DNA of 64,000 nt from Candidatus Chlorohelix allophototropha (GTDB lineage Bacteria > Chloroflexota > Chloroflexia > Chloroheliales > Chloroheliaceae): contig NZ_CP128399.1 in the NCBI RefSeq assembly GCF_030389965.1, forward strand, positions 930,001 through 994,000, read 5' to 3'. Below, piece by piece: positions 37,492 through 61,090 of the stretch. The notes below the pieces were generated by a model. The model did not search any database, had not been told where the DNA came from, and saw only the letters and a program-made list of their open reading frames with translations. The translations under genes were made by a program, and so were the position numbers. Each line of letters begins with the position of its first letter. The stretch's first letter is position 1.

Positions 37492-37779
37492 ATATTAAAA
37501 GTGTATAAAAAATATAAAAATGAGGTGAATTATAGATAGTATTAGTCTTACTATAACTATATAATCATTATGAAGCAGAAAATTTAACAAAGAGAGCCTA
37601 GTGTAAGGTATGTAATAAAGGCTATGACAACACCTAGAAAAAAGCATTCACCCAAATCACTTCTGCTCAAGGCTCTAAAACCGCGCTTTTCAACCAATTG
37701 TTAAAGAGTCTAGCATACCTTTCAGATTGTAACGTAGCCTTCCGTTATACCGTTCAACTATTTGTGGAGATACAATTTA

Positions 37780-38778
37780 GTGTACACATCTGTCAGGATT
37801 GAAAAATGTGGTGAAGCATCTTTTACTTCACCCTCATGGGGGATAAACCACTTTCAAAGCTTGGCTGTAGTTATTCCCGCATATAATGAGGAACGTTTTA
37901 TCGGCAGCGTGGTTATTCATGCACTTCGCTACGCTCCAAAAGTAATTGTCATAGATGATGGTAGCTCTGATGCTACTGCCTATATTGCCGAACAAGCCGG
38001 AGCAACAGTTATAAAGCATGAAACTAATCTGGGTAAAAGTGAGGCGGTAAATACTGCGCTTAAGTGGGCTAAGCAAAACGACACCCAAGCACTCGTTTTC
38101 ATAGATGGCGATGGGCAGCATAAACCAGACGAAATTTTAAGAGTTTTTGAACCGATTCTGGCAGGCAAAGCCGATTTGGTGGTAGGCTCACGCTTTTTAA
38201 CGATTAAAAGTGAAATTCCAGTATATCGGCAAATTGGTCAGCATTTACTAACCTCCTTTGTCAACTTAGCAAGTAATGTTGCAGTTACTGACTCACAGAG
38301 CGGTTTTAGAGCTTATTCACGCCGCGCAATTGAGTTATTACATTTTAATGGTTCGGGTCTATCAGTTGAATCAGAAATGCAATTTCTGATCGAAGAACAT
38401 ACTTTGCGAGTGGTTGAAGTGCCAATCAGCGTTATTTATAAAGAAAAGTCCAAGCGCAACCCCTTTTCACATGGTATGCAGATAATTTCAAATGTGGCAC
38501 GTTTAATGGGGCAGCATCGTCCTCTCTTAATGTTTGGGATACCCGGCTTATTTGCCATATTGATGAGCGTTATAACGGGGCTTCTAGTATTTGACATATA
38601 CTCCGAAACCCATGAAGTAGCATTGGGGTACTCTTTAATCACTATTATGCTAATAATACTGGGTGTATTATCAATCTTTGTAGGGCTAATTCTTCATTCG
38701 GTAAGAGCCTTTTTTTTGGATTTGAAGAAAACGATGCAACATAACTGCGTACTTTCCAATAGAGTCAGCAGGAGGTAA
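37780..38778 (+). CDS. GT2 glycosyltransferase, dolichyl-phosphate mannose synthase-like
   Basis: The GT2 fold shows AVVIPAYNEERFIGSVV, VIDDGSSDATAYIAEQAG and the DxD-like DGDGQHKPDEI. Two C-terminal membrane helices anchor it (about residues 253-275 and 288-310). DPM1-like enzymes build polyprenyl-phosphate sugars, which the neighbouring GT-C proteins would use. GTG at 37780 is preferred to a TTG at 37762 because GGAGA lies nine bases before it. Confidence 0.85.
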   Translation: MYTSVRIEKCGEASFTSPSWGINHFQSLAVVIPAYNEERFIGSVVIHALRYAPKVIVIDDGSSDATAYIAEQAGATVIKHETNLGKSEAVNTALKWAKQNDTQALVFIDGDGQHKPDEILRVFEPILAGKADLVVGSRFLTIKSEIPVYRQIGQHLLTSFVNLASNVAVTDSQSGFRAYSRRAIELLHFNGSGLSVESEMQFLIEEHTLRVVEVPISVIYKEKSKRNPFSHGMQIISNVARLMGQHRPLLMFGIPGLFAILMSVITGLLVFDIYSETHEVALGYSLITIMLIILGVLSIFVGLILHSVRAFFLDLKKTMQHNCVLSNRVSRR

Positions 38779-38786
38779 GACGTTTT

Positions 38787-39923
38787 TTGGCAGGAAAGCA
38801 TTCATTTGAGTTAGAATATATAGGTTCGTCTGTGCAAACCCTTAAAACAAGGGCTTACCTTCACCAAAATACCCAAGAATATTCAAAGACTGCCACTATT
38901 ACAATAGTTTGTTATAACCATAGCCGTCATATAGAAGCCTGCCTTTCCTCTGTGCTGAAAACGCTTCCGGAAGGCTGTGAAGTAATAGTGGTGGACAATG
39001 CTTCTACCGATGGGAGCGCCGAACTGGTGGAGAAGCTTTTCCCTCAGTTTAGGCTTATAAAGAATACGGTAAATGAGGGATTTGCCGGAGCCAATAATAC
39101 CGCTTTTAAAGAAGCCAATGGGCGTTACCTAGTTGCACTCAATCCCGATACAGTCGTTACTGAGGGGTGGTTGGAAGCTCTATTGGTTCCTTTCAAGGAG
39201 GCTGAAACCGGACTGACTACTGCCCGGATAATGCTGTTGCAAAAACCAAGTCAGGCAAATACATGTGGTAATGAAATGCATTTCACTGGCATAACCACTT
39301 GCCGAGGGCTGGGTTGGTCTTTAGATGAACCCGAACTTTATCGTTCCGCAATAGTTCCGGCTATTTCAGGGGCATGTTTTGCAATCAGGACGGAGTTGTG
39401 GAACGAGTTGGGCGGGTTTGACCCCACTTTCTTTACTTACCTAGAAGATACCGATTTATCGCTTAGAGTACGCTTGTCCGGTTATAAATGTGTCTATCTA
39501 CCAGACGCAGTGATATATCATGATTACACCAATCAATTTTCTTCCCGCAAGCTCTATTTTCTGGAACGCAACCGCCTGTTACTATTATTGAAATGCTATT
39601 CAACGCGCTCTCTATTGCTTTTATTACCAGCTCTTTTGTTGGCAGAGGCACTGGTCTGGGGTTATGCGTTTACCCATGGCGCTACTCGCTCAATTCTGGA
39701 GGCATATGGCTGGGTTTTTATACAGCGCAAGGAAATACTCCAGAAACGGAAGATTGTAAAATCTTACAGGCGAATAAATGATTATGAATTGTTCCGTGAA
39801 ATGCAATGGAGGCTAAATATCGGGCAGTTGAGCGGACCAACATTGGCTAAACTTGCAGATTTAGCTCTAAATCCGATCTTTTGGCTTACTTATAAAGCCT
39901 TCCAGCTTAAGATGTGGCGTTGA
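38787..39923 (+). CDS. GT2 glycosyltransferase (rhamnosyltransferase-like)
   Basis: ATITIVCYNHSRHIEACL, VVDNASTDGSAELV and ALNPDTVVTEGWLE define a GT2 enzyme of the WbbL/rhamnosyltransferase type. A C-terminal hydrophobic segment (LLLLLPALLLAEALVWGYAF) anchors it to the membrane. AGGAGG lies 11 bases before the TTG, at the end of the upstream gene. It overlaps the next gene by one base. Confidence 0.85.
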   Translation: MAGKHSFELEYIGSSVQTLKTRAYLHQNTQEYSKTATITIVCYNHSRHIEACLSSVLKTLPEGCEVIVVDNASTDGSAELVEKLFPQFRLIKNTVNEGFAGANNTAFKEANGRYLVALNPDTVVTEGWLEALLVPFKEAETGLTTARIMLLQKPSQANTCGNEMHFTGITTCRGLGWSLDEPELYRSAIVPAISGACFAIRTELWNELGGFDPTFFTYLEDTDLSLRVRLSGYKCVYLPDAVIYHDYTNQFSSRKLYFLERNRLLLLLKCYSTRSLLLLLPALLLAEALVWGYAFTHGATRSILEAYGWVFIQRKEILQKRKIVKSYRRINDYELFREMQWRLNIGQLSGPTLAKLADLALNPIFWLTYKAFQLKMWR

Positions 39924-41146
39924 TGAGTGTGGTTGTTACTCCAACAACTGCCCGTACTCCCCACAACTGGCGCCCGCTTCGCATAGCGCAGATAACTGCT
40001 ACCTTCCCACCTTATCATGGCGGCACCGGAAATGTCTGTTATTATAATTCTAGAGAACTGGGCAAGCTCGGTCACCAAGTGCATGTTTTTACCCGAACAT
40101 TGAAAGGGCTTCCCGCTCAAGAAAAGGGTGAGGGGTTTATGGTTCATCGCCTCAGACCTCTTATAAGAATTGGGAATGCTCCAGTTTTGCCGGGACTTTT
40201 GAAAGAGTTGCGAGGTTTTGATATTATCCACCTCCATTATCCCTTCTTCGGAGGCGAGTTGTCGGCTCTTAGCGCGGTCTTGCACGGTGTACCCCTCGTA
40301 ATAACTTATCACCAAGATGTATTGCTAACGGGGGTTTTAGGAGTGGTTGAAAACATATTGAGCCACACCACCGGGCGCATGACCCTCCGTAGCGCCGCCA
40401 AGCTTCTTTTCACCTCCACCGATTATGCAACCTATTCTAACGCTCGCCCACTGCTTAAAGGGCGTGAGGCTATAATAGGCGAATTACCAAACGGGGTTGA
40501 TATTACTATCTTTACACCCGGCGTTCCTCGTTTGGATTTGCTGGCTCGGTACAAGCTAGAGCCTCAGAATCGAATTGCGCTTCTTGTAGCGGCATTGGAT
40601 CGTCCCCACTATTTTAAAGGGGTCAATGTTTTCCTCGATGCTATGGAGTTGCTTCCGCCCTCGTACAAAGGGTTAATAGTAGGCGAGGGGGAATTGCGAC
40701 AGGAATACGAGAAACATGCCGAAGAGCTAGGAATTAAATCTCGGATAACTTTTGTCGGTAGGGTTAGTCAGGAAGAATTGCCGGATTATTACAGGCTGGC
40801 GCATATTACTATCCTTCCTTCAACAACAAGAGGCGAAGCCTTTGGCATGGTGCTGCTGGAATCCCTAGCCTGTGGGATACCGGTGATAGCTACGGATATG
40901 CCGGGTGTGCGTACAGTGGTTGAACCGGGCAGAGACGGGTTACTGGTCACACCGGGTGATTCGATACAATTGAGCCAAGCGATTGAGCAGCTTTTAGAAT
41001 CGGATGCCCTGCGTCAAACAATGGGAATACAGGGGCGGGCTAGAGTTGAGGAGCATTACAACTGGCTTTCGCTCATTTCCCGTTTGGAAAAAATATATTT
41101 TCAGGCGCTGAGTGAAGCCGGAACAGACCGGCGAGGTTTAGCTTGA
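39923..41146 (+). CDS. GT4 glycosyltransferase
   Basis: A GT-B retaining transferase with QITATFPPYHGGTGNVCYYN in the acceptor half. In the donor half, STTRGEAFGMVLLESLACG carries the E-x7-E motif. The stop of the upstream gene and the ATG share a base (TGATG), so translation is coupled. A GTG nine bases earlier is possible. The sugar donor is not readable. Confidence 0.88.
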   Translation: MSVVVTPTTARTPHNWRPLRIAQITATFPPYHGGTGNVCYYNSRELGKLGHQVHVFTRTLKGLPAQEKGEGFMVHRLRPLIRIGNAPVLPGLLKELRGFDIIHLHYPFFGGELSALSAVLHGVPLVITYHQDVLLTGVLGVVENILSHTTGRMTLRSAAKLLFTSTDYATYSNARPLLKGREAIIGELPNGVDITIFTPGVPRLDLLARYKLEPQNRIALLVAALDRPHYFKGVNVFLDAMELLPPSYKGLIVGEGELRQEYEKHAEELGIKSRITFVGRVSQEELPDYYRLAHITILPSTTRGEAFGMVLLESLACGIPVIATDMPGVRTVVEPGRDGLLVTPGDSIQLSQAIEQLLESDALRQTMGIQGRARVEEHYNWLSLISRLEKIYFQALSEAGTDRRGLA

Positions 41147-41715
41147 AAACTGCGGTCGCCAATATCCCATTAGAGTATTTGTATGCGTTGGATGCTGTAA
41201 TGCCGTTGCTAGCAAAAAACGGCTATAAAACAGTCCTGTGTAATATTCAGGAATTGCTCTCAGAACTGAATATGCGTTTGGAAAGCGTTGAAAATCGAGC
41301 GGTGGGAGGCGTAAGCTTATGGATAGAACCTCAAGCCGATGACTGGCAGGCACAATTGAGCCATTTTTCAACTTTAATTACAAGTGGAAATACTTTGCTT
41401 ATAATTGCTTCCAGACCACTGGCGCGGCTATTACCGGAACGGCGTTTATGGCAGGGCAACCCGCTGGGATTGCAACCGGGAGGTATCCGCCAGCTTAAGA
41501 AAAGACTGCCGCTGTCAGGTTTTCGGCTTGAAGCTGCACACGGGATTCACACGCTTTTATCAACCGGGATAAATAGCTTTAGTACGGCGCTTGGTAAGGC
41601 TCAGTTGCCTTCTCTCTCCGACCGCCTGTACTTTGCCGCCCGGCTTAATTACAGGGCGAGCGGTTGGCTTTCATCTCTTTCCACTGTTTCGCTGATAGAA
41701 GCAAGTGTGTTGTAA
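41143..41715 (+). CDS. Hypothetical protein in the glycan locus
   Basis: I do not recognise the family. The middle (LITSGNTLLIIASRPLARLLP) and the C-terminal half (GFRLEAAHGIHTLLSTGINS) vaguely recall class I methyltransferase C-terminal parts, but the SAM-binding glycine loop is absent. TTG at 41143 overlaps the upstream stop by four bases. Its tight packing suggests a role in the same pathway. Confidence 0.6.
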   Translation: MKTAVANIPLEYLYALDAVMPLLAKNGYKTVLCNIQELLSELNMRLESVENRAVGGVSLWIEPQADDWQAQLSHFSTLITSGNTLLIIASRPLARLLPERRLWQGNPLGLQPGGIRQLKKRLPLSGFRLEAAHGIHTLLSTGINSFSTALGKAQLPSLSDRLYFAARLNYRASGWLSSLSTVSLIEASVL

Positions 41716-41762
41716 AGCTGTAACCCTACACTGGAAAAAATATTCTGGAAAAACTTAGAGCC

Positions 41763-43067
41763 GTGTCCGAACTGACTAATAGCCCTATTGATGACGCGCT
41801 TGCCCGGTTGGAAGCTTGGCTGGAAACTATGCGCTGCCCCGGCGGTTACGGTGGACCTGTGGCGCACTGGTGGCAACAGAGTCTTCTGTATACTGGTCCC
41901 GGCTTGGATTGGCGCTACGAGGGTATAATTCTTGGGTATTTGCTGCTATGGAAAAATACTGGACAAGCACAATGGCTAGAGAAAGCTTGTCGAGCTGGAA
42001 ATGATTTGCTGGAAGGACAGCTAAAAAGTAAAAATTTCAAAGCTTCTTCCTTCGAGAGAAATCCGGCTATCGCAGGGACACCGCATGAAGCAGCTTGCGA
42101 TATAGGGCTGCTATCTCTGGCATTAGCCCTAGGGGAAATTGACCAGCCTAAGTATGCCATCTGCGCCGAGCAAAATATCAAAGAGTTTCTGATAGAAAAG
42201 CTCTGGGATGAACAATCCCGTTCTTTCTGCGATAACATTGCCAAAAACACCTTTGTACCAAATAAGGCGGCTACCATTTGCGAAGCCCTTTTTCTGTTGG
42301 CAGAAGTGACCGGGGAGTCTCGTTGGGTGGACTATTACGCTTTACCTACCCTCAACCGCATATTACAATATCAGTGCGGGAAAGAACAGGGCAGGTTGGA
42401 AGGCGCGGTAGCTCAGAACAGTATAGATAATCAGATGGTGTTAAAATATTTCCCGCTGTATAACGCCAGATGTGTAACTGCTCTGCTAAAAGGCTATCGG
42501 TGGAGTGGGCAGGCGCGTTTCCTAGATTCGGCGATAAAGATTATGCGCTTTATTACAAGCTGGTCTTTCGGCGAAGGCAGTTTTCCTACTGTGGTATATT
42601 CCAATGGGACAACCAATACTGCTCCGAACTGGATAGCGGCGTTAGGTGATATATTACGGGCTAATGCTGAGTTAGCGACCTTTGGCGCAGATTTCAAAAT
42701 GGATGGGTCGCTTCAGAGATTACTGAATGGTCAAGATGATACGGGCGGTATCCAAACGGCGAGTGGCTTTGCTCGCCAAGCTGGAAGAAACAGGTTAAAC
42801 TTGCCAGATGTGCGCGATGTTTTGCATGTGGCGGGATGGTGTGATAAAGCGTTTCGCTTTTTGGCAGGGTACGTTTCAAAAGCCCCTTTGCCTGAAGCAA
42901 CAAGCGGAACATTTGAAGTAGCGTGTGTGTTAAAGGGACAGGCTCTTAAGGTGGTAGAAACCCCGGAATTCCTAGAAGTCAAAAACCGCCAATCACAAAT
43001 CCGGTATCGCTGGCAGAAGGGCAAGATGTGGGCAACGGTAGCTGAAGCTGAATTTTGGCTGAAGTGA
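41763..43067 (+). CDS. Alpha/alpha-barrel (six-hairpin glycosidase-like) protein
   Basis: Repeated helical hairpins with aromatic and acidic clusters (HWWQQSLLYTGPGLDWRYEG, AACDIGLLSLALALGE, CEALFLLAEVTGES) fit an alpha/alpha toroid as in GH88/GH127 and C5-epimerase-like proteins. No signal peptide is present, so it acts in the cytosol or on lipid-linked intermediates at the inner face. The start is GTG. Whether it cleaves or epimerises sugars is open. Confidence 0.65.
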   Translation: MSELTNSPIDDALARLEAWLETMRCPGGYGGPVAHWWQQSLLYTGPGLDWRYEGIILGYLLLWKNTGQAQWLEKACRAGNDLLEGQLKSKNFKASSFERNPAIAGTPHEAACDIGLLSLALALGEIDQPKYAICAEQNIKEFLIEKLWDEQSRSFCDNIAKNTFVPNKAATICEALFLLAEVTGESRWVDYYALPTLNRILQYQCGKEQGRLEGAVAQNSIDNQMVLKYFPLYNARCVTALLKGYRWSGQARFLDSAIKIMRFITSWSFGEGSFPTVVYSNGTTNTAPNWIAALGDILRANAELATFGADFKMDGSLQRLLNGQDDTGGIQTASGFARQAGRNRLNLPDVRDVLHVAGWCDKAFRFLAGYVSKAPLPEATSGTFEVACVLKGQALKVVETPEFLEVKNRQSQIRYRWQKGKMWATVAEAEFWLK

Positions 43068-43079
43068 GATAACCTGATT

Positions 43080-44261
43080 ATGATGACAATTTATAAAATG
43101 CCCGAATCTTCTATTTTAAAGAAACTGCTACAGAAAAAGCATGAGAAAAAGCATGTAGGTAAAACCATTTTATCCATAGGGATAACTGCGGTTGCATTTC
43201 TAAATTTGCGTCTGTGGCAACGCGATAAGCGACTATTGACTGAGTTAAAAGCCGAAATAAATCGGGAAGCTTTACTGAGTTACACCCCTAAAATAAGTGT
43301 ATTGGTAGCGGCTTGGAATGAGCGAGCTAATATAGAAGCGCATCTGCTTTCTTTCAAAAATCTGACCTATCCTGATATTGAGCTTATTTTGTGTGCCGGT
43401 GGCGCCGATAACACCCTAGAGCTGGCATGCCGCCATGTCGCGGAGAACATCCTTATTTTGGAACAGTTTCCCGGCGAAGGCAAACAACACGCTTTGTCCC
43501 GTTGTTATGAACGAGCAAGTGGTGAACTTATTTACCTGACCGATGCAGATTGCCTGTACCAAGATAGAGCGTTGCTATATTTGCTGGAGCCTGTTACAGA
43601 GAATGGAGAACAGGCTGTTACCGGCGCTTCCCGCCCATGGGATTGTCAGATGGGCAAGCCCCTGCCAGACTATCTCTGGGCTTCCGATACGGTTTCAAGT
43701 GCGCGTAGCCCTCATTATATTCAGGGGTTACTCGGTCGGAATACGGTTATTACACGCCAAGCTCTTGACCGCAGCGGTGGAATGAATTTCCCGGCTTCCA
43801 GCGGCACCGATTACCAACTCGCCCGGCGTTTGGTTAGCAGTGGCGTTCGAATACGCTATGTCCGCGCCAGCCAGATACCTACGGTTTACCCGGAAGCTTT
43901 AGGGGTTTATCGGCGCAAGCAATCTCGCTGGTTGCGCAATCTGCTGCAATACGGGTGGCAGTATCGCGCAAAACAAGACTTGTGGCTAACCGTCAAAACG
44001 GTATCAATCGGCTTGATAATGCTGGTTTGTCCACTGTTAGCGCTATTATTCAGGTCCAAAACCCTAGCAATCTGGTTCTTAGTGTTAACGCATTCTGTTT
44101 TTTCAAAAATGCGTTATCTTAGGTTTACTGCCAAGCTTTACCAGCGTCCGATTTCGCCCCGCACTCTTTTGTATTTATTGCCTCTGACGCTTGCGGATTT
44201 TTTCATTTGGGCATCGCCCTTGCTTGACATGTTTCTGTCTAGGAATCGCATTCGATGGTAG
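43080..44261 (+). CDS. Membrane GT2 glycosyltransferase
   Basis: An N-terminal hydrophobic segment (about residues 23-40) is followed by a GT2 domain with ISVLVAAWNERANIEAHL, DADCLYQD and a QxxRW-like QSRWLRN. Two or three C-terminal helices follow. This arrangement is that of processive or polyprenyl-linked sugar transferases (N-acetylglucosaminyltransferase type). It overlaps the next gene by seven bases. Confidence 0.8.
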   Translation: MMTIYKMPESSILKKLLQKKHEKKHVGKTILSIGITAVAFLNLRLWQRDKRLLTELKAEINREALLSYTPKISVLVAAWNERANIEAHLLSFKNLTYPDIELILCAGGADNTLELACRHVAENILILEQFPGEGKQHALSRCYERASGELIYLTDADCLYQDRALLYLLEPVTENGEQAVTGASRPWDCQMGKPLPDYLWASDTVSSARSPHYIQGLLGRNTVITRQALDRSGGMNFPASSGTDYQLARRLVSSGVRIRYVRASQIPTVYPEALGVYRRKQSRWLRNLLQYGWQYRAKQDLWLTVKTVSIGLIMLVCPLLALLFRSKTLAIWFLVLTHSVFSKMRYLRFTAKLYQRPISPRTLLYLLPLTLADFFIWASPLLDMFLSRNRIRW

Positions 44262-45418
44262 AAACTTTTATGCTAAAGACTTCGGTGAAAACTTCATCTC
44301 CCAAAAATGAAGCTCTAGCTATAAGGCTTGTGGGCTACAATCCCAACCGCCCCATTTCCAGTGGTGGCATTACAAATTATATACAACAACTGGCAGCCAA
44401 TTTGCAGAATTTGGAGTCTAGCTTCCAACTTCAAGGCGCAGAAGTGCAGCAGCTTTTCCGGGTATATCCCTACTGTCGAGGGGAAATTTTGCATATTCCA
44501 ATGATAATGGGAGCGCAGGTATTGCTGACAAGACGGTTCAATCCGGCAGTGGTGACTGTGCATGACCTAGGGGGTTTGCTTTTCCCCTCCGATTTTACCA
44601 ACCGGAAGTTGGTGGATAAAGTAGTTTTCCGGCTGGCTTTATCAGGAATGCGAAGAGCCACGCATATTTTAGCCGATTCCCTTTACACTAAAATGACTTT
44701 AATAAAGCATCTGGCGATACCTGAAAATAAAATAACAGCGATTCCTCTAGGGGTTGACCACGCCCACTTTACGCCACAAGATAAAGCTTACGCCCGTAGC
44801 CAACTTGCGACCCGCTTTGGTTTATTCTTTCCAGAAAACCAGCCTACCTTGCTCTATGTAGGAAGTGAGTTGCCTCGTAAAAACTTGGGCGTACTATGGC
44901 AAGCCCTTAATCACCTACGAAAAAGCTATCCGAAAGCACTGCTCTTAAAAGTTGGAAAGCCCGGTGGAGCATTTCGGGAGAGAACCATGCGTGAAATTGA
45001 GCAGTTCAATGTTTCAGAGGCAGTTCATTTTCTGGATGAGGTGGCAGACGAGCATTTGCCCCTGTTTTATAGCGCTGCCGATATCCTCATACAGCCCTCT
45101 CTCTACGAGGGTTTCAGTTTGCCCACTGTAGAAGCTATGGCATGCGGTTGTCCTGTTCTGGCAGCAAGAGCAACCTGTTTGCCGGAAGTGATTGGGGAAG
45201 GGGGCATCTTTTTTGACCCCTATTCGTTTGAGGAACTGGCTATGCTTATTGAGAGCCTATATCAAGATGAATGGAAAAAGAAGTTCTTGCGTGAATACGG
45301 TCAAAAACAAGCCCTTAAATACGATTGGGCAACCGTTGCAAACCAGACTCTCGGTGTTTATTATAAAATAGCTGAGGCTAACATTATGAACCACCCTAAA
45401 AAGCGCATAGGTTTTTAG
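44255..45418 (+). CDS. GT4 glycosyltransferase (mannosyltransferase-like)
   Basis: RPISSGGITNYIQQLAANL, HDLGGLLFPSDF, ILADSLYTKMTLIKHL and PSLYEGFSLPTVEAMACG with E-x7-E define a GT4 enzyme. It is a paralogue of the genes at 50981 and 52105, with the same core motifs. ATG at 44255 lies in the end of the upstream gene; a second ATG five codons on is possible. Confidence 0.88.
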   Translation: MVETFMLKTSVKTSSPKNEALAIRLVGYNPNRPISSGGITNYIQQLAANLQNLESSFQLQGAEVQQLFRVYPYCRGEILHIPMIMGAQVLLTRRFNPAVVTVHDLGGLLFPSDFTNRKLVDKVVFRLALSGMRRATHILADSLYTKMTLIKHLAIPENKITAIPLGVDHAHFTPQDKAYARSQLATRFGLFFPENQPTLLYVGSELPRKNLGVLWQALNHLRKSYPKALLLKVGKPGGAFRERTMREIEQFNVSEAVHFLDEVADEHLPLFYSAADILIQPSLYEGFSLPTVEAMACGCPVLAARATCLPEVIGEGGIFFDPYSFEELAMLIESLYQDEWKKKFLREYGQKQALKYDWATVANQTLGVYYKIAEANIMNHPKKRIGF

Positions 45419-45422: not shown

Positions 45423-48400
45423 ATGACCGTACAAAGTAAGAATCAGGGCGGGCAAATTGCTAAGCCGGACGGGAAATCTGCTCTGGCAAAAACTACTATT
45501 CTGATGTCTTTTGTTAGCGCGCTGATGGTATTTCTAAATGCCCTCAGCGGTTTCTATGTAGCGCGAAATCTAATACCGTATGAATACGGGCGGCTCACCT
45601 ACTTTACAAGCCTTTTTCTAATCGTTTCACTTGTTTTCGGTTTTGGTCTGACCGTTTCAGCCATTCAGCACCTCTCCCGCTTTAACATCGTGAAAAACTA
45701 CTCCGAACTGAACCGGATGTTTTACTCCCTGTTTCTTATGCGCCTTTCAGTACTGCTACCATTGTTGCTGTTAAGCGGGTGTCTGTCTCTGATTACAGGG
45801 GACGACTTATATTTCCTAGTTGGTTTGGCGGCTAGCCTATCGGTGGTAGCGGACTTCCTGTGCGGGGTTTTTCAGGGATTACAGCAAATCTGGCGAACTG
45901 CCCTGCTTTATCTGCTGCAACCCATCGCCTTTATAGTGTTGCTGGTAGCAGGTTTGAATCAATCCAGCAAATCCGTAATATTAGCGCTTGAGCTATCCTT
46001 TGGGCTTGCCTGTGTGTTAGGCATATTATTATTATGGGGAACAGGTATTGCGCGTCCCTTGCTGAAATTTTTTTCGCTGCCTCATATTAAAGTTGCTTTG
46101 CCTATTTCAGGTCAATCTTACACTATTTCTCTTTTTCAGACGTTATACTACACTTATGCGCTGGTGTGGCTTGGTAGCCTGAACCAGTATGGTGAGGCAG
46201 CTTTACTCAACATCGCGTGGACTTTGGTGAGGATTTTACCGCTTGGGCTAACTCCTTTGCTGAATACTGTGCTATTCCCCCGTCTTAGAAGTTTGGTCAC
46301 TTCGATCGATGACCTTAATGATAGGAAGAAGGCTGCCTCGAATTTGGTAGCAATCTATTTCAAGGGGGTTGTAGTTTTGGGGTTAAGCGTTTCCGCGCTT
46401 ATGGCGTTTTTCCCTGAGATAGTAATTGAGTTCTTCTATACCTCGAAATATCTTGCAGCTGCTCCTATCCTAGTAATCCTAGCTCCTACTGTCCTATTTT
46501 TAGGGCTTGAGCCGCTCTTGACCGTTACTTTGATTGCGCTTGAAAAAACCATGTTGCCTATAATGGCTAACCTGTTGCGCCTTTTGCTGGTGGGAGTCAT
46601 TGGGCTAGGTGGTTATATGCTGGGCGCTTTGGATTTGAATCTTTTGCTGGCTTTAGCTTATCTGTTGTCTGCGTTTGCTGGAACTGCCTTGCTGGCTTTT
46701 TACTACTTCAGGCTATCAGGCACCTTTCACGCCGGGTTGTTGTTTGGCTTTGCCGCTTCAAGTATGGGTATTGCCGCGACTTGCCGACTTTTACTCCCGG
46801 AAATTTCGGGCGACTTTATAGTGCGCCTTTACCGCCCGGCGGTGGGCGGACTTTTAATGGCAGGGATAGCGTTGGTTTTTCTAAAGAAGGATTTCAAATT
46901 CAATTTTTTCCGAATAAAGTCGGCAAAGAAAATAGGTGCGCTTGCTCTGTTAGGGTTGTTACCTCTGACATTCATTGCTGCCCCGACTCAATCCACAGCC
47001 CTAGCTCAATCAGATTTGAATTGCAGCGGAGCCGCGCAATCACCTCGAATATTAAAACTAGATTGTCTCTCGGAAAGCTCCACCGCCCATTTCTTGATTA
47101 CAATGTATTCCAGAACAGACCTGCTCTCCAATGTAAGCTGGGAAAAGCAACTGAATTATGAGGATTCCATCTGGCTAATCAGGGTTGCTAACGATGAGCG
47201 GGTTAAATTGGCGCTGGATTTTCATCGCGAAGGAAAAGCGCAGTACGCCGACCTGTATGACGATGGGGACGGTGATGGTAACGTTCGCTACGATCTATAT
47301 GCCGGTAGCCCACGAATATTAGAAAATCAGGGTCGCTGGACTGTGCGAGTAACGGCACAGGAGGGTTGGTGGAAACCAAATGGCAAGCTCAATTTCAATC
47401 TGGATATTTTGGTGGATGGCTCGCTTAGAGGCTCTTATGGGTCTGGTTTTATTTATGATTATAAGAAATTACTAAAAAATGACGGTCAGCTTGATTTTGA
47501 GATTCATGTGCGAGACCCTAATAATAGCGGTTTTCCAAAATACGAGTGGCGGCAAGATCGGTCTCCGCTGCCGGAAGACCCCACAGTTAGCGGACAGTAT
47601 CGTACAGAAATTAATGCAAACTTTGAAGGAAATGAAGCGCCTATTAGCGGGGCATTATTCTGGCCCTATTTAAGCCAAATAGTCGGGAATTATATTAAGG
47701 GCTATAACGTAAGCGCATCCCCAATTCAGGTGGACTGGGAAAAGGGCAAAATTGTGCAGATTTCCGAGTTTGTAGCTTCACGCGGGAAACCGGGCAATTT
47801 TTTTGTCTATTCCTTAAACCGAATCAAGGAGGGACAGCTTAATTCTACCAATTTTGAGAATCCTTTTGCTTTTTATGACCTTTCTGGCGTAAAAGATGGG
47901 TGGCCCGATACAGCGATTCGCTTTGAAGCCGCGCTACCCTTTCAATTGCCCGGTGATTTGTCTATTCCGAAACCGATTAATATTCTAGAATATGCTTGGG
48001 GAAAAGAACACAATCATAACCTGACTTATCAGGTGAGCCTTTGCGGGACAAAGCCGATAGATCAGATAATTTCCTTCCCGGAATTTACAATAAAGGCAGT
48101 GCCTCCTCAAAAGCTACCCGGTTGGGTAACAGGGCAAAACTGGGATGCGGCTACTTTTGTGGAAGTAGAAAAACAGCCCTACTGGACTTCAGAGATAATA
48201 TACGAATGGACGGTGGAACAGGCTGATAGTAAAGGTCGCGAAAAGGTATTGCCTTGGCGCTATATTACCGGACTTGAAAATACCCCCCCTGCCGATGCTT
48301 TTTCCCATATACAAGCCGGATTTCGCGGGGAGTATTCGCTTAACTTGCAGGCAAAACCTTACTTGTATTTCAGCCCGGTGGATCATAAACTTCACTTGTT

Positions 48401-49400
48401 AAAAGCGGATGGAGGAGTTTGGAATTTAGATGGGCAGTCGGAAATTAGCTACACCGACCTTGACCACGATGGCTATATCGATATGTGGCGTTATAGTTCG
48501 CCTGCCTCAAGCGATAGCTTGACTCCTGAAATTCGCCAGCTAAATTTGGCGGGAGATTATTTAGTTTATCAGGACGGGTCGCAAGTATTACTTCGCAAAG
48601 CGCGGGTAAACGCCTTTTCTTTTGTCACCTTACCCCCTACCAATCAAACTGAGTGGGAGAATTTGGGCAAAAAACTTAAGGAACAGCAGGCAAGTTTTCA
48701 GCCTACAGATTTTAAGGCGATGCTGAATCAGTTCGAGGGGCAGGATATACTATTTTCCCATGCTAGTTTCAGTGATTTTCGGTCTCTTAAAAACGGCTCG
48801 TTTAGATTTATTCTTGAGCTTAGAGAGGCTTTCCACTCTCAGGAGAAAGCTTTACCCGGTATTACAGACCTCAAGCCCGGTAAGTATGTGGTGGAAGATT
48901 TGGATGGCGCTTTAAGAATTACGCCCTCCACCCCTCCTGCGCTAAGGGTAACACTTTCCACTCAGCCTAAACGCTATCTGGAGCAGAATGAAGTTCTAAT
49001 AGCTATAAATAATGATGGGGAGGAAGATATTAGCGAGGGTCAACTGGAATTATGGGTCTCGCGCTCCCAAGAAGAGCTGCGCCTAGTAAGTTCGCAGACC
49101 ATCTCACTACCCGCCAACAGCAAAATTTCGCTGCCTTTTATCTGGACTCCTAGTAGCGCCGGTCTATGGTTGCTTACTCCCAAGCTGCGCTATAAAAATG
49201 AGGAGCTAATCAGTCACGTTTCTGAACAGATTACGGTTTTACCTGAGAAAGGGGCTTCATCGGATAATATTGCGCAAATACTCTGGGCTGACACGAACTT
49301 ATTATTTGTGTTGCTTTGTCTAGGGGCAATCGCTACCCTAGGTGGGTTAGTTTTCTGGAAGCATTGGCAAACTTCAGGTCAGGCGCATGATGCTGAATAA
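45423..49400 (+). CDS. Wzx-like flippase fused to a giant extracytoplasmic domain
   Basis: Residues ~20-495 are a polysaccharide-biosynthesis (MVF/Wzx-like) flippase with about 12-14 helices (ARNLIPYEYGRLTYFTSLFL). Then comes KKIGALALLGLLPLTFIAAP and QSTALAQS, which looks like a signal peptide with an AxA-type cleavage site (about residue 527). Residues ~530-1285 are beta-rich, with two acidic loops of the EF-hand/dockerin kind (DDGDGDGN near 613, DLDHDGYID near 1013) and a CARDB-like domain near 1185-1275. One helix (~1290-1310) ends the protein. It is one uninterrupted frame and overlaps the next gene by 14 bases. I know no standard family with this fusion. Confidence 0.85.
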   Translation: MTVQSKNQGGQIAKPDGKSALAKTTILMSFVSALMVFLNALSGFYVARNLIPYEYGRLTYFTSLFLIVSLVFGFGLTVSAIQHLSRFNIVKNYSELNRMFYSLFLMRLSVLLPLLLLSGCLSLITGDDLYFLVGLAASLSVVADFLCGVFQGLQQIWRTALLYLLQPIAFIVLLVAGLNQSSKSVILALELSFGLACVLGILLLWGTGIARPLLKFFSLPHIKVALPISGQSYTISLFQTLYYTYALVWLGSLNQYGEAALLNIAWTLVRILPLGLTPLLNTVLFPRLRSLVTSIDDLNDRKKAASNLVAIYFKGVVVLGLSVSALMAFFPEIVIEFFYTSKYLAAAPILVILAPTVLFLGLEPLLTVTLIALEKTMLPIMANLLRLLLVGVIGLGGYMLGALDLNLLLALAYLLSAFAGTALLAFYYFRLSGTFHAGLLFGFAASSMGIAATCRLLLPEISGDFIVRLYRPAVGGLLMAGIALVFLKKDFKFNFFRIKSAKKIGALALLGLLPLTFIAAPTQSTALAQSDLNCSGAAQSPRILKLDCLSESSTAHFLITMYSRTDLLSNVSWEKQLNYEDSIWLIRVANDERVKLALDFHREGKAQYADLYDDGDGDGNVRYDLYAGSPRILENQGRWTVRVTAQEGWWKPNGKLNFNLDILVDGSLRGSYGSGFIYDYKKLLKNDGQLDFEIHVRDPNNSGFPKYEWRQDRSPLPEDPTVSGQYRTEINANFEGNEAPISGALFWPYLSQIVGNYIKGYNVSASPIQVDWEKGKIVQISEFVASRGKPGNFFVYSLNRIKEGQLNSTNFENPFAFYDLSGVKDGWPDTAIRFEAALPFQLPGDLSIPKPINILEYAWGKEHNHNLTYQVSLCGTKPIDQIISFPEFTIKAVPPQKLPGWVTGQNWDAATFVEVEKQPYWTSEIIYEWTVEQADSKGREKVLPWRYITGLENTPPADAFSHIQAGFRGEYSLNLQAKPYLYFSPVDHKLHLLKADGGVWNLDGQSEISYTDLDHDGYIDMWRYSSPASSDSLTPEIRQLNLAGDYLVYQDGSQVLLRKARVNAFSFVTLPPTNQTEWENLGKKLKEQQASFQPTDFKAMLNQFEGQDILFSHASFSDFRSLKNGSFRFILELREAFHSQEKALPGITDLKPGKYVVEDLDGALRITPSTPPALRVTLSTQPKRYLEQNEVLIAINNDGEEDISEGQLELWVSRSQEELRLVSSQTISLPANSKISLPFIWTPSSAGLWLLTPKLRYKNEELISHVSEQITVLPEKGASSDNIAQILWADTNLLFVLLCLGAIATLGGLVFWKHWQTSGQAHDAE

Positions 49401-50973
49401 ACAGAAACTACCTCAAGGCAACTCGCCTCAAGTTGCGACTAATTATCTTGTTTGTGGCACCCTAGTTGGGTATGTTTTACTTTTAGCCATCTATTATATA
49501 GGTCGCTATGGTGGGAACTGGGCAGAGTTAGACTCTAGCGTATTGAGCAAGATAACCCGGAATTTTATTGAAAATAAGCAATTGGTGCCTAGCAGTGGTG
49601 AAGTTTATCCAAACGGCTATTCCTACCAAGCCCTAACCGCCTTTATCACCACCCTTACGGGTCTGACTGTCGCGGATTTACAGCAGTTGGTCTATCCTTT
49701 GACCGCTATATTGGCAGTTCTACCGGCGTGGTTACTCTATTATGAGCTTACCGGTAGCCTTAAAGGCACTATTCTTGCCACGCTTCTACTTTTCACCCAG
49801 CCCGAATATTTGTTTGTGTTATTTCGCAGTTCCCATGAAAAGTTTACGAGAAGCCTCATGTTGCTTTCACTGTACTTTTTGGTAAAAAGCTTTGAGAAAC
49901 AGGGGCGACCCAGAAAATCCATTCCTTATGTGATTCTTTTTTATTTCGCAATTTACACCCTGATGAGCTTTAATAACCTCATGGGGGCTTCTTTTATTTT
50001 TGCGCTATTCTTGACCACAGTAATAGCGTTGCCGGTAGGTAAAATAGGCTTGCAATTGTGGTCTCATGCGTTGCTCCGCTTTCGCTATATAATTTTAACC
50101 TGTCTAGTTCTAGCTTACCTATTTACCTTTTATATATACCCTCCGGCAATGCACGATCTTGTATTCCTTAGAAATATCTGGGATCGCGCTATAGCTCTAT
50201 TCTTGAGTACCCCCAAAGAGCCTGATATTCCGGTTAGTGATGTGATTGGATGGGTAAATCCGATAATTTACCTGTTATTGAGTCTACCTACCTGGATTAT
50301 TACGATAGCCGCGTTTGTTATCTGGTTGGGAATGAGTTGGAAATGGCTGGTAAAGCAAGAAAAGCCTGACTCACCAGTGCTCTCTTTTGTATGGCTTTTA
50401 TATCTTGGGTTTGGTATTCAAGGCGTATTATCATGGATAGCGGATAAAAGCGGTAGTGGCGGTAATTTGGTATATCGCCTTTTCCCTTCAATTTCTCTGT
50501 TGTCTGTGGCGCTGGCTGGTCGTTTCCTTGCAAACTGGAAACCTCCCAGATATATTAGAGTCTGGAAGGTAGGGCTTGCGTTTGCAATTGCCTGTCTTGC
50601 GTTTGTTTCTATCTTAAAAGTCACAAACGAGCCTACTCTTAGCAATAAATGGACTTTCTACTCTATTTCAGAACTGGTAGCGCTGGATTGGACTGATAAA
50701 ACTGTTCAATATTCACAAGTTTGGACAGATTTTGATGAGCGGCTTTCGGTCGCGTATGCAATTGCAAGGGGGGAATCAAAAAACCACAACGATTTTTATG
50801 GTTATGAACTAAGAGAAACGATAACACGCTACTTGCTGGATAGTAGCCTTAACAGATTGCGTAGTAAGCGCTTGCAAAAAGTTATGCCATTTCCGCCGGA
50901 CGCTCTGATAATATATGATAATGGAGAGACGCAATTACACCGATTATATCCAAAAACCCCTTTTCAGGATTAA
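49387..50973 (+). CDS. GT-C-type membrane protein (STT3/GT39-like)
   Basis: About 12 helices with an acidic first loop (NWAELDSSVLSKITRNFIEN), a long external stretch (SSGEVYPNGYSYQALTAFIT) and RSSHEKFTRSLMLLSLYFL, recalling oligosaccharyltransferase/mannosyltransferase type GT-C proteins. The short C-terminal part is not the WWDYG domain of STT3. The ATG overlaps the flippase gene. It probably transfers or elongates a lipid-linked glycan outside the membrane. Confidence 0.65.
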   Translation: MMLNKQKLPQGNSPQVATNYLVCGTLVGYVLLLAIYYIGRYGGNWAELDSSVLSKITRNFIENKQLVPSSGEVYPNGYSYQALTAFITTLTGLTVADLQQLVYPLTAILAVLPAWLLYYELTGSLKGTILATLLLFTQPEYLFVLFRSSHEKFTRSLMLLSLYFLVKSFEKQGRPRKSIPYVILFYFAIYTLMSFNNLMGASFIFALFLTTVIALPVGKIGLQLWSHALLRFRYIILTCLVLAYLFTFYIYPPAMHDLVFLRNIWDRAIALFLSTPKEPDIPVSDVIGWVNPIIYLLLSLPTWIITIAAFVIWLGMSWKWLVKQEKPDSPVLSFVWLLYLGFGIQGVLSWIADKSGSGGNLVYRLFPSISLLSVALAGRFLANWKPPRYIRVWKVGLAFAIACLAFVSILKVTNEPTLSNKWTFYSISELVALDWTDKTVQYSQVWTDFDERLSVAYAIARGESKNHNDFYGYELRETITRYLLDSSLNRLRSKRLQKVMPFPPDALIIYDNGETQLHRLYPKTPFQD

Positions 50974-50980
50974 TGCTCTG

Positions 50981-52108
50981 ATGAGAATTGGCTATCTAAC
51001 TTATGGTCTTGACCGCTATCCCACCGGAATAGGTCGCTATGCCACCGAGCTTTTAAAAGGTTTTTATGCTTTGCCCGAATCCCCTGATATTGTATTGCTG
51101 ACCACAGAACAAGAAGATAAAGCAGGGTTATGGAATCATTTTGAGCATTACCCTTTAACAGGTTGCCGTTTGCTGCCCGCACTTATGGCAATAGGAAATC
51201 TGGCTCTTTCCCGCGCTTCCCTAAAATATAAGTTGGATCTAATTCATGACCCAAACGGAATCGCCCCTTTCTTTGGTCATGCTGCGGGAGTTGCCCGCGT
51301 AGTTACAATCCATGATGCTTTTACGTACATTTATCCCGAAAAGCATAATTGGCTGGATAATTGGCGGTATAAATACTATTTTCCTCACACTGCCCGTAAA
51401 GCTGATGCCGTTATTACAGTAAGTAATTGTTCTAAGCAAGATATTATCCGCTATTTAAAACTAGATCCTGATAAGGTTTTTGTCATTCCGGAAGGGGTGG
51501 GGGCAGACTTTATAGCACAGCCAGAAGGCAAGAAAAGACGGCAAATACTTGAGCGGTATGGGATTAAAAAACCTTATTTGTTATATGTGGGAGCAATAAA
51601 TGGGCGTAAAAACTTGGAGGGGCTTCTCAGTGCCTATGCGCTTTTACTTCTGCGCTATCCAGACCTTAACCTGACTATCGTAGGTAAGCGACAATGGAAA
51701 ACTGGAGGTGTGGAAACCGCTTTACAGCGTCTTAAACTTGAAAATCGAATAAACTTCACCGGATACATAGAAGATGGACATCTGCCGGATATATATAGCG
51801 CCGCTGAAGTTTTTGTATTTCCTTCGCTGTATGAAGGCTTTGGGCTTCCCCCACTAGAAGCGATGTCATGCGGCGTACCTGTAGTTACCTCAAATGTCGG
51901 ATCGCTCCCAGAGGTAGTGGGTAGCGCTGGTCTTATGGTTGACCCCTACGATGTACCTAGCCTTGTCGATGCCATTGAGAAGGCTATGATAGATAGTGAA
52001 TTGAAAGCAAGGCTAATAAAAAAAGGTTTCGAGCGAGTGGCAGGGTTTACTTGGGAAAATGCGGCGGCGAAAACATTTGAGGTGTACCGAAAACTGAGCA
52101 AAATATGA
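50981..52108 (+). CDS. GT4 glycosyltransferase
   Basis: [20 protein letters not shown] at the N-terminus, [39 protein letters not shown] and [19 protein letters not shown] are those of GT4 mannosyltransferases. ATG at 50981 is chosen over an earlier in-frame ATG at 50915 that would overlap the upstream gene; the usual GT4 N-terminus begins at 50981. The stop overlaps the next start by four bases. Confidence 0.88.
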
Positions 52109-53298
52109 CGAGTCATAATATAGTGAAAGAGGAGGAGATACGCCAATTTGCTGTAAGGTTGGTCGGACTAAGCGAAGGTAGTTCCACTGGCTTATCGCGC
52201 TATGCTCGAAGCCTTTACCAAGAATTGACCCTGCAAGAGGTAACGGTAGGGGTAACAGATTTTAAAACCCCTTCTATTCCTCCTTTTGTTGGAAAACTGG
52301 GATTTGATTCGGCTAAGTTTTTTAGCACTTTCCCTGTAGCGTTACCTGACGCTGTGGGTAACACCGTAACGCATTTGACTACCCAGAATCACGCCTCTGC
52401 CGTAGCATTTAAAAAGGTCAAGCGGTTGGTGGTAACGGTTCACGATCTGATTACCCTGTGCTATAATCACTACCCTGAGTTCACTACCCATTTAAAATAT
52501 TATGATAAATTCTTTAATCGGTTGGCAGCGTATGGTTTGAAGAAAGCTCGTATGCTAATTGCCGTTTCTGAATATACGCGCCAAGACATTATTCGACTCT
52601 TATCATATCCCTCTGACCGAATTAAAGTGGTATATGAAGGAGTAGATCGGCAGAATTTTAGAGTTAAAGAAGTGCCGACCAATTTCTATCAACGCTATAA
52701 TCTGCGTGAAGATATACCCTATTTGCTAAACGTTGGCTCCGAAGATCCTCGCAAAAACATACGGCGGCTTTTAGCGGCATTTGCCAAGGTTTCAGCAGAA
52801 TTCCCCACTGTAAGATTACTAAAAGTTGGGGCTGCCGAGTTCCGTCACGAGAGGCAATATTTGTTGGATGAGGCAAAACTGCTAGGAATAAGCGACAAGG
52901 TGGTTTTTTTTGACCGGGTTTCGGATACAGACTTGGCTTATTTCTATAATATTGCGACAGCCTTTATCTTTCCCTCGCTCTATGAGGGTTTCGGATTACC
53001 TGCTCTGGAAGCTATGTCTTGCGGAACTCCGGTTATATGTTCCAATGCTGCTTCCCTTCCTGAAGTGGTAGGAGATGCCGCTTTGTTGTTCAGTCCAACC
53101 GATACATTGGAAATGGCTACCTTAATAAAGCGGGTACTTAGCGAACCTGATTTACAAAAGCATTTGCGCCGCTTAAGTATTGAACAAGCTGCCTTGTTTA
53201 ACTGGGAGAAAACAGCCATAGAAACAGCCAAAATTTACAGGCAAGTGGTAGAGTTAGAAAAAGAGGCTTCCATGAAAAGAAAGCCATCCGTATGCTAA
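52105..53298 (+). CDS. GT4 glycosyltransferase
   Basis: SEGSSTGLSRYARSLYQEL, TVHDLITLCYNHYPEF, DPRKNIRRLLAAFAKVS and [19 protein letters not shown] show a GT4 enzyme close to the preceding gene. ATGA links the two. Tandem copies with diverged N-terminal halves indicate different acceptors. Confidence 0.88.
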   Translation: MTSHNIVKEEEIRQFAVRLVGLSEGSSTGLSRYARSLYQELTLQEVTVGVTDFKTPSIPPFVGKLGFDSAKFFSTFPVALPDAVGNTVTHLTTQNHASAVAFKKVKRLVVTVHDLITLCYNHYPEFTTHLKYYDKFFNRLAAYGLKKARMLIAVSEYTRQDIIRLLSYPSDRIKVVYEGVDRQNFRVKEVPTNFYQRYNLREDIPYLLNVGSEDPRKNIRRLLAAFAKVSAEFPTVRLLKVGAAEFRHERQYLLDEAKLLGISDKVVFFDRVSDTDLAYFYNIATAFIFPSLYEGFGLPALEAMSCGTPVICSNAASLPEVVGDAALLFSPTDTLEMATLIKRVLSEPDLQKHLRRLSIEQAALFNWEKTAIETAKIYRQVVELEKEASMKRKPSVC

Positions 53299-54140
53299 AA
53301 GGTTTGAAAGTGCAGTCTAATAATTTTGACTTGCTATTGATAACCCTACTGGCTCTTTTGCTACCTGTTGTGGTACAACTATCTTTACCATGGTTAAGGG
53401 TGCCTTTTGGACTGATTATGGTGTTGTTGGCGCCGGGTTATGCCATGTTACAGGCAATCTTCAACTCCGAAGTTGCGCCCGATTGGATATCGCGGCTTGC
53501 CCTCAGTTTTGGTTTAAGCCTTACAGCAGTAGCGCTACTGGTACTTATTCTCAACCTACTCCCACAAGGCATCAACCTATGGTCGATTACCATTTCTGTT
53601 TCATTATGGGTTATACTTTTCAGTGTAATTGCTGTTATCAGGCGCGGGAATCAGACACGTTTAATAGTAGAAGAGCCGAAAGAGGTAAGTACTCTTGAAA
53701 AATGGCAACCTGCCCAAAATTCGTCATCCCGTCTTATTTATATAGTTGGCGGTCTGGTTGTAGTGGTACTCCTGAGTCTTTTGCTAATAGAGTTACAATC
53801 CTCTCGTTCGGAGCATTTGACTGAATTTTACATTCTGGGATCAACCGGAAAAGCCGAAAATTATCCTTATAACGTGGTGATAGGTCAGCCTATAAAGATT
53901 CAAGCTGGAATTACTAACCGGGAAAATCGGCAGGTAAGTTATCGGATTGAAATACGAGACGGTCTTGAAGTTCTGGCGAGAACGGAAGTAATAAAGCTAG
54001 AGAACGAGGGTTTCTGGTTACAACCGCTGCAATTTAATGTCGGTTCTCAGGTAGGAATTCGAACAATTGATTTGTTGCTATATTTCGATAATAATCTTGA
54101 CCCTTACCGCCAACTAAGACTACGCCTTAACGTGAATTAG
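53292..54140 (+). CDS. DUF1616-type membrane protein
   Basis: Four helices (residues ~10-110) with LPWLRVPFGLIMVLLAPGYA and RLALSFGLSLTA match DUF1616. A fifth helix (~147-170) is followed by an external beta domain to residue 282. DUF1616 proteins are of unknown function and common near archaeal and bacterial surface-glycan genes. The start overlaps the upstream GT4 gene by seven bases. Confidence 0.75.
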   Translation: MLKGLKVQSNNFDLLLITLLALLLPVVVQLSLPWLRVPFGLIMVLLAPGYAMLQAIFNSEVAPDWISRLALSFGLSLTAVALLVLILNLLPQGINLWSITISVSLWVILFSVIAVIRRGNQTRLIVEEPKEVSTLEKWQPAQNSSSRLIYIVGGLVVVVLLSLLLIELQSSRSEHLTEFYILGSTGKAENYPYNVVIGQPIKIQAGITNRENRQVSYRIEIRDGLEVLARTEVIKLENEGFWLQPLQFNVGSQVGIRTIDLLLYFDNNLDPYRQLRLRLNVN

Positions 54141-54166: not shown

Positions 54167-55075
54167 GTGAAAGCCAGCAACATTGCTACTCCCACTCCTT
54201 TTGTGCATTATAGGTTAAGCTGGTTTTATCTGGCTCTTTTCGCAGGGGCAGAACTGTTAATAGCTACTGCTAACCCAATGCCCGGTCTTGCGCTGCACTG
54301 TTTAATTCTTTCAGCCCTTATCCTGCATAGCGCGTATCTAGCGAACTCTGACCTAGCCAATTTATACCGCTCTCTGATGGTGATAGCGATTTTGCGAATT
54401 CTCTCGATGAGCTTACCGCTGGATTTATTCCCACCTATAGCCCGTTACCCTATGATATACCTGCCTGTATTATTTTCAATTTGGCAGGTTGCTAGGCTGG
54501 CGGGGCTTCGCGCAGCTGAGTTAAAACTAAGAACCGGTAATTTATTCCTACAACTTCTTATTGCGTCTGGCGGGTTTGGGCTAGGCGCGTTGGAATACCT
54601 TATATTACAATCTTCGATACTGTCCGAACCTTTCGCTTGGGTCTCTTTTCTTACATGGACTCTGGTTTTAGTATTATGCACGGGTTTTTGCGAACAATTA
54701 TTGTTTTCGGGTCTATTGTTAACTTTTTCCACTCGAACCTTTGGAAAGTATGCCATTCTTTATGTTTCACTGCTTTATGCAGCTTTGAACATCAGTACTG
54801 GTTCCTTACTCCAATGCATAATTGCATTTGGAATAGGGCTGAGCTTTGCTTTCCTAGCAAAGTGGGGAAATTCGCTACTTTGTGTATCACTTGCTCAGGG
54901 GACAGCAAACCTAACGGTACTTTTGTTAATGCCTTATCTGGAGGGAAATAGTACAAACTGGTTGGCAACGTTGACGCGCTGGGTCATTTGGATCAGTTTA
55001 CCGGCAGCTATCGGTGGTGTATTTGTTCTCTGGTGGCGCTTTAGGCAAGGAAAGGTCAAAATCTCACTACAATGA
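54167..55075 (+). CDS. CPBP-fold membrane protein with lost catalytic residues
   Basis: Seven to eight helices of the CAAX-protease/bacteriocin-processing (CPBP) type. The motif EExxxR is CEQLLFSG (E176, second E lost), the FxxxH motif reads YAALN (H lost, N209), and the third-histidine motif reads SLAQGTAN. The predicted glutamyl protease is therefore probably inactive. It sits in the glycan locus between DUF1616 and a two-helix protein, with a GTG start. It may act as a scaffold. Confidence 0.65.
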   Translation: MKASNIATPTPFVHYRLSWFYLALFAGAELLIATANPMPGLALHCLILSALILHSAYLANSDLANLYRSLMVIAILRILSMSLPLDLFPPIARYPMIYLPVLFSIWQVARLAGLRAAELKLRTGNLFLQLLIASGGFGLGALEYLILQSSILSEPFAWVSFLTWTLVLVLCTGFCEQLLFSGLLLTFSTRTFGKYAILYVSLLYAALNISTGSLLQCIIAFGIGLSFAFLAKWGNSLLCVSLAQGTANLTVLLLMPYLEGNSTNWLATLTRWVIWISLPAAIGGVFVLWWRFRQGKVKISLQ

Positions 55076-58013: not shown

Positions 58014-58714
58014 ATGTTAGAAGAAATTGTTTTACCTACACGCTGGGAAATTCAGCTTGATGCCTGTAAAGAAGAAGGCAGTACCCTGCTTCTCGAAGCA
58101 CATTTAACATACCAGACTACACAATGTCCGAGTTGTAGATTTACGGCGGAGCGGGTGCATAGCCGTTACAAAAGACAACCGACAGACTTGCCGTTAATCG
58201 GGCAACAAGTAAGCTTGAGTTTAACCATACGCCGTTTCTTTTGTGATAATTCTGGTTGCCCGCGTCGCACTTTTGCGGAACAAGTACCAATTCTGCTCGA
58301 AAGAAAAGCCAGGCGTACCATTCGCCAATATCATTTGCTCGAAAATCTGGCTTTTGCGCTGGGAGGTAGACCGGGTGTTCGGCAAGCTGCTAAAGAGGGT
58401 GTAAAAGTAAGCCGTGATACTCTATTACGCATTATTCGAAAAACGCCGATCCCTTTACAACCTACTCCTCGAATTCTAGGAGTGGACGATTGGAGTTACA
58501 AGAAAGGGGTCGAATACGGCACGATCTTGATCGATTTAGAGCAACATTGCCCGGTAGATTTACTAGCTGACCGAAAAGCCGACACATTAGCTAAATGGCT
58601 GGAGGAACATCCAGGGGTGGAGGTAGTCAGTAGGGATCGTGCCAGTGCTTATGCTGATGGTGCCAGGCGAGGAGCACCAGAAGCGATTCAGGTGGCTGAT
58701 AGATTTCACCTCTT
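58014..58714 (+). CDS. ISL3 transposase, exon 1
   Basis: The N-terminal zinc ribbon ([17 protein letters not shown], second pair [11 protein letters not shown]), the HTH and the first catalytic residues ([17 protein letters not shown]) up to VADRFHLL are intact. Here GTGCG begins the group II intron; joined to exon 2 the frame continues VNLGDH, exactly the family sequence. The start is at the ATG of 58014. Confidence 0.85.
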
Positions 58715-59266
58715 GGTGCGCCGTATAGACGCTTGTTGGATACCTTTTAGAGAAAGGAGCGGTTGAGAGTAACAGACCGTTAGGACGGTGGCTTACTCGA
58801 TGGGGAAAACCCAGACAGGACAGTAGCATGCCACAAAACCTCAGCAGACTGAAGACGTTTAGGTCTGGTTGAGGGTGTCCTGCTCGCTATGGTGAAGCTG
58901 AATTGCCGAACCTAATCTACCAACGGTGGTAAGGAACACTCAGCGTTAATAACGTTTATCGCGCTGTCACCGAAATATGCATCAGATTACGAGGGATGCA
59001 AAACACTCTCTTCGGTGAGTGATGGGTAATGAACCCATTCAAGGAGATGAAAGGGCACCTAAGGCGAGCTAGAACGTCTAACAAGTGGGATGCGGGATGA
59101 CCTACGGGTCGCGAGACCTACGGTCACGGAACCCCCATAGTAGTCCGGGCTGAGGAAAACTCAGTACATGGCGAAGGGGCAGCCTTTGAAAGAAGGCCAG
59201 AGTTGACCCTTTGACAAAGGTCAGCAGGGTAGGTGTCGGCGAGTTGAGTATAGAAAGGGGCGCGTG

Positions 59267-61078: not shown

Positions 61079-61090
61079 ACCGATGCTGGA

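Follow-up and report, generated by a model that had tools for sequence, protein, structure and literature searches.

A single open reading frame of 1325 codons in 'Candidatus Chlorohelix allophototropha' L227-S17 joins a flippase to a large β-rich domain, and the explanation we favor, which we hold to be probable, is that two adjacent and normally translationally linked genes were fused and that the resulting chain is cut into a flippase and an anchored β-domain standing beside a GT-C protein. The frame (45423-49400, plus strand) lies in a 64,000-nucleotide stretch, here called the window, of a genome composed of chromosomes of 2.96 and 2.45 Mb, a 375-kb chromid, and plasmids of 241 and 55 kb (PMC10972752). 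It contains no internal stop, and its GC3 shows no break where flippase and domain join. A preliminary description of the window had reported this continuous frame, residue limits for the flippase, the β-rich part, and a final helix, and an AxA-like site (TALAQS) after a hydrophobic segment. Our analysis bore these out: the frame is uninterrupted, the limits agree with Pfam, hydropathy, and AlphaFold2, and TALAQS lies at residues 525-530 (Table 1).

Table 1. Features of the fusion ORF and of the surrounding glycan locus, in window coordinates.
Feature	Position	Strand	Description and basis
Flippase part, MOP/Wzx-type	45423..46910	+	Residues 1-496; 14 predicted helices, both ends cytosolic; PF01943
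Join	46911..46916	+	Codons CGA ATA; TAA ATG in frame at the equivalent spot of G095
Inherited signal peptide, (I)KSAKKIGALALLGLLPLTFIAAPTQSTALA	46914..47006	+	Likely cut A528/Q529; corresponds to the N-terminal signal peptide of separate homologues
Extracytoplasmic β-rich domain, including anchor	47007..49397	+	Residues 529-1325; DxDxDG loops near 614, 698, and 1012; AlphaFold2, homologues, motifs
CARDB-like Ig-type domain	48948..49166	+	About residues 1176-1248; sub-threshold Pfam CARDB; sequence and fold match to PDB 3idu/2kl6
C-terminal membrane anchor	49299..49355	+	Residues 1293-1311, short polar tail; hydropathy and helix in model
GT-C-fold membrane glycosyltransferase-like partner (predicted)	49387..50973	+	Shares 14 nt with the fusion ORF; AlphaFold2 and Foldseek
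Upstream locus genes: GT2, GT2, GT4, two unnamed, GT2, GT4	37762..45418	+	Conserved locus; 37762, 38787, and 39914 assigned by sequence, not individually scanned with Pfam
Two GT4-type glycosyltransferases	50915..53298	+	Sequence; similarity to homologues at the equivalent place
DUF1616 membrane protein	53292..54140	+	PF07760, E 9e-42; conserved position
CPBP (Rce1-like) intramembrane protease homologue	54167..55075	+	PF02517, E 1.9e-8; conserved position

The N-terminal half matches PF01943 over residues 30-289 (E 3.5e-7; 30.4 bits against a cut-off of 28.2), and the separate flippase homologue of the nearest relative, genome G095, is a 488-aa PF01943 protein. We class this half as a MOP-type flippase for a lipid-linked sugar, the transport role being predicted. 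By hydropathy its helices show a positive-inside bias (21 Lys and Arg residues inside versus 12 outside), and their even number places the C terminus of the flippase inside; a 15th hydrophobic segment follows at residues 504-522, then the extracytoplasmic domain, and then the last helix.

No Pfam or NCBIfam family scored above its cut-off on the C-terminal half. AlphaFold2 nevertheless gave a confident β-rich model of residues 529-1325 ending in a helix (pLDDT 89.7, pTM 0.84), as the preliminary description had proposed for this part. The domain is single-copy in its own genome, absent from all four same-family genomes, and present in 16 of the 158 genomes from its class and in 22 of 400 genomes sampled across the phylum; eight of these 22 match weakly, and over the C-terminal part alone. 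A search with alignment A1 placed it at 42 loci of a named collection, after a scan with the window domain alone had returned none. Named carriers are Chloroploca, Kouleothrix, Thermoflexus, Anaerolineae, and Thermomicrobiales; Bacillota/Sulfobacillus are more distant, and Planctomycetes, Verrucomicrobia, Lentisphaerae, and Acidobacteriota remote. In nearly all of these places the domain stands alone as a protein of about 800-850 aa, which begins with a signal peptide of its own and has a helix at the C terminus. The C-terminal half belongs to an unnamed Chloroflexota family, found also in Bacillota, whose members are normally separate and carry a cleavable-looking signal peptide. As a separate observation, a remote relative from a Planctomycete (L099:7431-10322) ends in a DUF4861 domain (PF16153, E 1.9e-58), which could be a lead to a carbohydrate-related role.

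Within the domain, residues E812, R833, W859, D987, and H991 are conserved, DxDxDG loops recur at matching places among homologues, and two surface-domain families give weak matches, each in 7 of 43 family members: CARDB (best E 2.1e-4) and FG-GAP (best 6e-4). In the window protein itself CARDB stays below threshold (E 0.2; 12.3 bits against 22.7), and the CARDB-like region has a fold match to PDB 3idu with a TMt of about 0.7. A fold search found no propeller with a good TM-score and no convincing structural match for most of the domain outside the CARDB-like part; integrin-alpha, returned at an E of about 1e-6, was rejected on a TM-score of about 0.1.

Flippase and domain are usually encoded by separate neighboring genes, an arrangement that comparison of loci brings out and that is not visible from a single sequence. 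A flippase gene lies directly upstream of the domain gene in about 19 of 35 nonredundant loci (a hand count, limited by contig ends), and in many of these the two genes touch or share a few bases (TAA/ATG, ATGA), whereas in others a short gap separates them. In the nearest relative the junction reads, in frame, GCT TAA ATG CGC AAG, and the window at the equivalent place reads TTC CGA ATA AAG. CGA is one transition from TGA, ATA is one transition from ATG, and the peptide that follows the ATA, KSAKKIGALALLGLLPLTFIAAPTQSTALA, is a normal signal peptide. We rate a path through TGA to CGA and ATG to ATA as likely, since by a rough estimate a transition-only stop/start pair would occur within ten codons by chance in about 2% of cases. 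A single-base frameshift does not account for the join and was rejected, since none of the frames offers a clean stop followed by a usable start.

The preliminary description had suggested searching Chloroflexota for the same fusion and for split neighbors, and besides the split neighbors we found three other loci with flippase and domain in a single frame, all resting on metagenome-assembled sequence: L064 (from groundwater), L074 (Anaerolineae SKYB113), and L076 (626A.7, cut by a contig end). Their flippase parts match PF01943, that of L064 just below the cut-off, and each has a hydrophobic segment with an AxA-like site. In a tree of 31 domains the four fused proteins stand on separate branches, and well-supported forks force four changes. 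Joining is not confined to the flippase side: an Anaerolineae MAG carries the domain and a GT-C homologue in one frame (L072:1995-5975), with no start codon near the join. The mergers elsewhere, rarer and independent, suggest that flippase and domain protein cooperate with a membrane glycosyltransferase. A class search around genome G370 found no further fusion. Two other long frames, in G040 (1333) and G103 (1206), were rejected as GC-rich artefacts because their N-terminal parts are rich in Arg, Gly, and Ala without a Pfam match and a flippase-like ORF lies in another frame.

The genome of the window holds further fused flippases of other kinds. One (L107:289-2943; G000:C2, ~1056930) is an 884-aa protein in which about 400 N-terminal residues of an unnamed multi-helix membrane protein precede PF01943, and another (L109:373-2733; G000:C1, ~2243450) combines a polysaccharide pyruvyl transferase (PF04230) with PF01943 in one 786-aa ORF, so that three of the five PF01943 flippases of this genome are fusions.

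The segment after the flippase (residues 498-528) has the build of a signal peptide, with a positively charged KKDFKFNFFRIKSAKK, then 17 hydrophobic residues that form a core around a central proline, and finally ALA/QS. An AxA site alone is weak evidence, because in related membrane proteins one follows about 10% of 518 helices (32% for a looser motif). Homology to the signal peptides of the separate proteins is the stronger argument: at the place matching the window segment, 35 of 38 scored sequences of separate homologues end the signal peptide with an AxA-like site. Since the separate relatives have their own signal peptide and the nearest relative has TAA/ATG in frame at the junction, we conclude that the internal hydrophobic segment is the inherited signal peptide. 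Two type I signal peptidase genes are present in the genome. The preliminary description had read the segment in this way and had offered two outcomes, a cut by signal peptidase or a tethered domain that would receive the flipped glycan; its signal-peptide reading is well supported by the matching peptides of the homologues and the two peptidases, and cleavage appears the better of the two outcomes, with tethering as its main rival. The product is described here as probably a polyprotein that signal peptidase I would cleave, supplying the flippase and the β-domain of a flippase/β-domain/GT-C glycan module.

If the segment were left uncut, it would form a 15th membrane helix and the β-domain would stay at the flippase exit as in MviN of Mycobacterium tuberculosis, holding or handing over the flipped sugar-lipid. 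The recurrence of the fusion is what would be expected if joining were useful, and MviN provides a precedent for a C-terminal extracytoplasmic domain on a flippase; against this, all four fusions have kept a typical signal peptide with an AxA-like site, and the separate homologues share the cleavable-looking peptide. We regard tethering as rather unlikely on this balance. A separate domain could also be produced by internal initiation, some ribosomes starting within the flippase frame to make a secreted domain and others making the fusion. TTG484, with a weakly spaced AGG 7 nt upstream, could serve in the window, and L074 has a strong candidate in an internal GTG that is preceded at 7 nt by GGAGG, while L076 has an internal ATG. 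We think this improbable for the window protein, which has no ATG or GTG from codon 479 to the signal-peptide core and in which a TTG484 start would add a 20-residue n-region; neither it nor L064 has a good internal start. We consider it very improbable that the fusion is an assembly error, in which a stop and a start codon would have disappeared from the deposited sequence of an organism whose two genes are separate. In favor of such an error, most relatives have two genes, and two substitutions would turn the join into a stop/start pair. Against it, the sequence would have to be wrong twice in a six-base stretch, shifting by a single base does not produce a clean stop and start there, and the published assembly is closed, hybrid, and polished (PMC10972752).

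Under the fusion-and-cleavage explanation, loss of the flippase stop and of the neighbor's start would have created the fused ORF, and Sec would insert its product as a single chain. The 15th hydrophobic segment, the old signal peptide, would enter from the cytosolic side and carry the 750-residue domain across, and signal peptidase I would most likely cut after Ala528, giving flippase and membrane-anchored domain at 1:1. The domain would then act outside the membrane, on the sugar-lipid delivered by the flippase and beside the GT-C-type protein encoded immediately downstream.

That downstream protein has no Pfam family, and the GT-C alignment matched nothing in the PDB by sequence, the fold search alone giving a match. 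Its AlphaFold2 model (pLDDT 86.7) matches OST/AglB/ArnT/PMT structures in Foldseek (E 5.6e-6, prob 1.00, TMq 0.4-0.54), and its family has WxExD in the first outer loop, with Asp49 invariant in 33 sequences. We therefore predict a GT-C fold of the OST/ArnT-like kind and a glycosyltransferase-like protein. Where the sequence reaches far enough, most loci have a GT-C homologue downstream of the domain, and this applies also to Bacillota/Sulfobacillus loci in which the flippase is not adjacent. Many loci, in a comparison partly cut by contig ends, share the order GT2, GT4, unnamed, GT2, flippase, domain, GT-C, GT, DUF1616, CPBP. Among the locus proteins scanned with Pfam, a set that leaves aside the GT genes at 37762, 38787, 39914, 50915, and 52105, there was no priming transferase, Wzy, or Wzz, although such genes may also be located in other parts of the genome, and because of this result, oligosaccharide transfer or extension outside the membrane would fit the locus better than classical Wzx/Wzy polymerization.

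Other features of the window were noted in passing. An 842-aa secreted protein with a DUF1565-type parallel β-helix match (33320-35848) stands at the start of the glycan locus; a sortase-domain protein (PF04203) with an N-terminal helix (13544-14281) is distant from it. At 58014-62258 apparent pieces of an ISL3-type transposase flank a group II intron-type reverse transcriptase/maturase (59264-61078), as if a group II intron had inserted into the transposase.

The β-domain family is large and has no Pfam or NCBIfam model, and gene order and two-sided fusions link it to a flippase and a GT-C-type transferase, a linkage that offers a testable function for it in the export or attachment of Chloroflexota surface glycans. 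We propose, tentatively and as less likely than not to hold in full, an undescribed Chloroflexota machine for glycan assembly outside the membrane, in which the β-domain would physically bridge flippase and GT-C protein, the parts would have been joined into single chains independently in several lineages, and the internal-signal-peptide polyprotein would set their stoichiometry. If the internal signal peptide is cut, the window protein would be an example, uncommon in bacteria, of a polytopic transporter synthesized as a polyprotein; left uncut, it would give the flippase exit a built-in outer domain.

Among known systems, the flippase half resembles PF01943/Wzx-like MOP flippases in its family match and its glycosyltransferase locus, but unlike them the window protein bears a C-terminal signal peptide and a 750-residue secreted domain. 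The β-domain recalls the FG-GAP and CARDB surface-domain families in its weak matches, its DxDxDG loops, and the CARDB fold match near the C terminus, whereas most of it has no confident structural match, the top integrin TM-scores being near 0.1. The partner resembles GT-C transferases (OST/AglB/PglB, ArnT, PMT) in predicted fold, a likeness known from fold prediction only, and differs from them in having no Pfam family. The preliminary description knew of no described family with this layout, which holds for the Pfam and NCBIfam releases searched, and the literature searched contained no flippase/outer-domain fusion described in Chloroflexota; but the layout recurs in other Chloroflexota, and the M. 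tuberculosis flippase MviN can carry a C-terminal extracytoplasmic domain of sugar-binding type (PMC12599244). MviN (Rv3910), which is MurJ-type, likewise has flippase and C-terminal extracytoplasmic domain on one chain, but it differs from the window fusion in its cytosolic pseudokinase, its single linking helix, and its place in the lipid II pathway. In the window protein about 16 residues separate the last flippase helix from the next segment, with no kinase family match and no pseudokinase between flippase and domain. To our knowledge, MviN has no signal peptide with an AxA site. FbcH of Bradyrhizobium japonicum is a single chain in which a polytopic cytochrome b and a secreted cytochrome c1 are made together and cut by signal peptidase at an internal signal sequence. 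In both cases a polytopic membrane protein is linked by an internal signal sequence to a secreted partner with a C-terminal anchor. For the window protein, relatives encode the two parts separately whereas here they share one ORF, and the signal peptide at the join, with its AxA site (ALA/QS), is homologous to those of the separate proteins. FbcH consists of respiratory proteins, whereas the window fusion belongs to a glycan locus. The layout combines the MviN-like and FbcH-like patterns and is a member of neither family.
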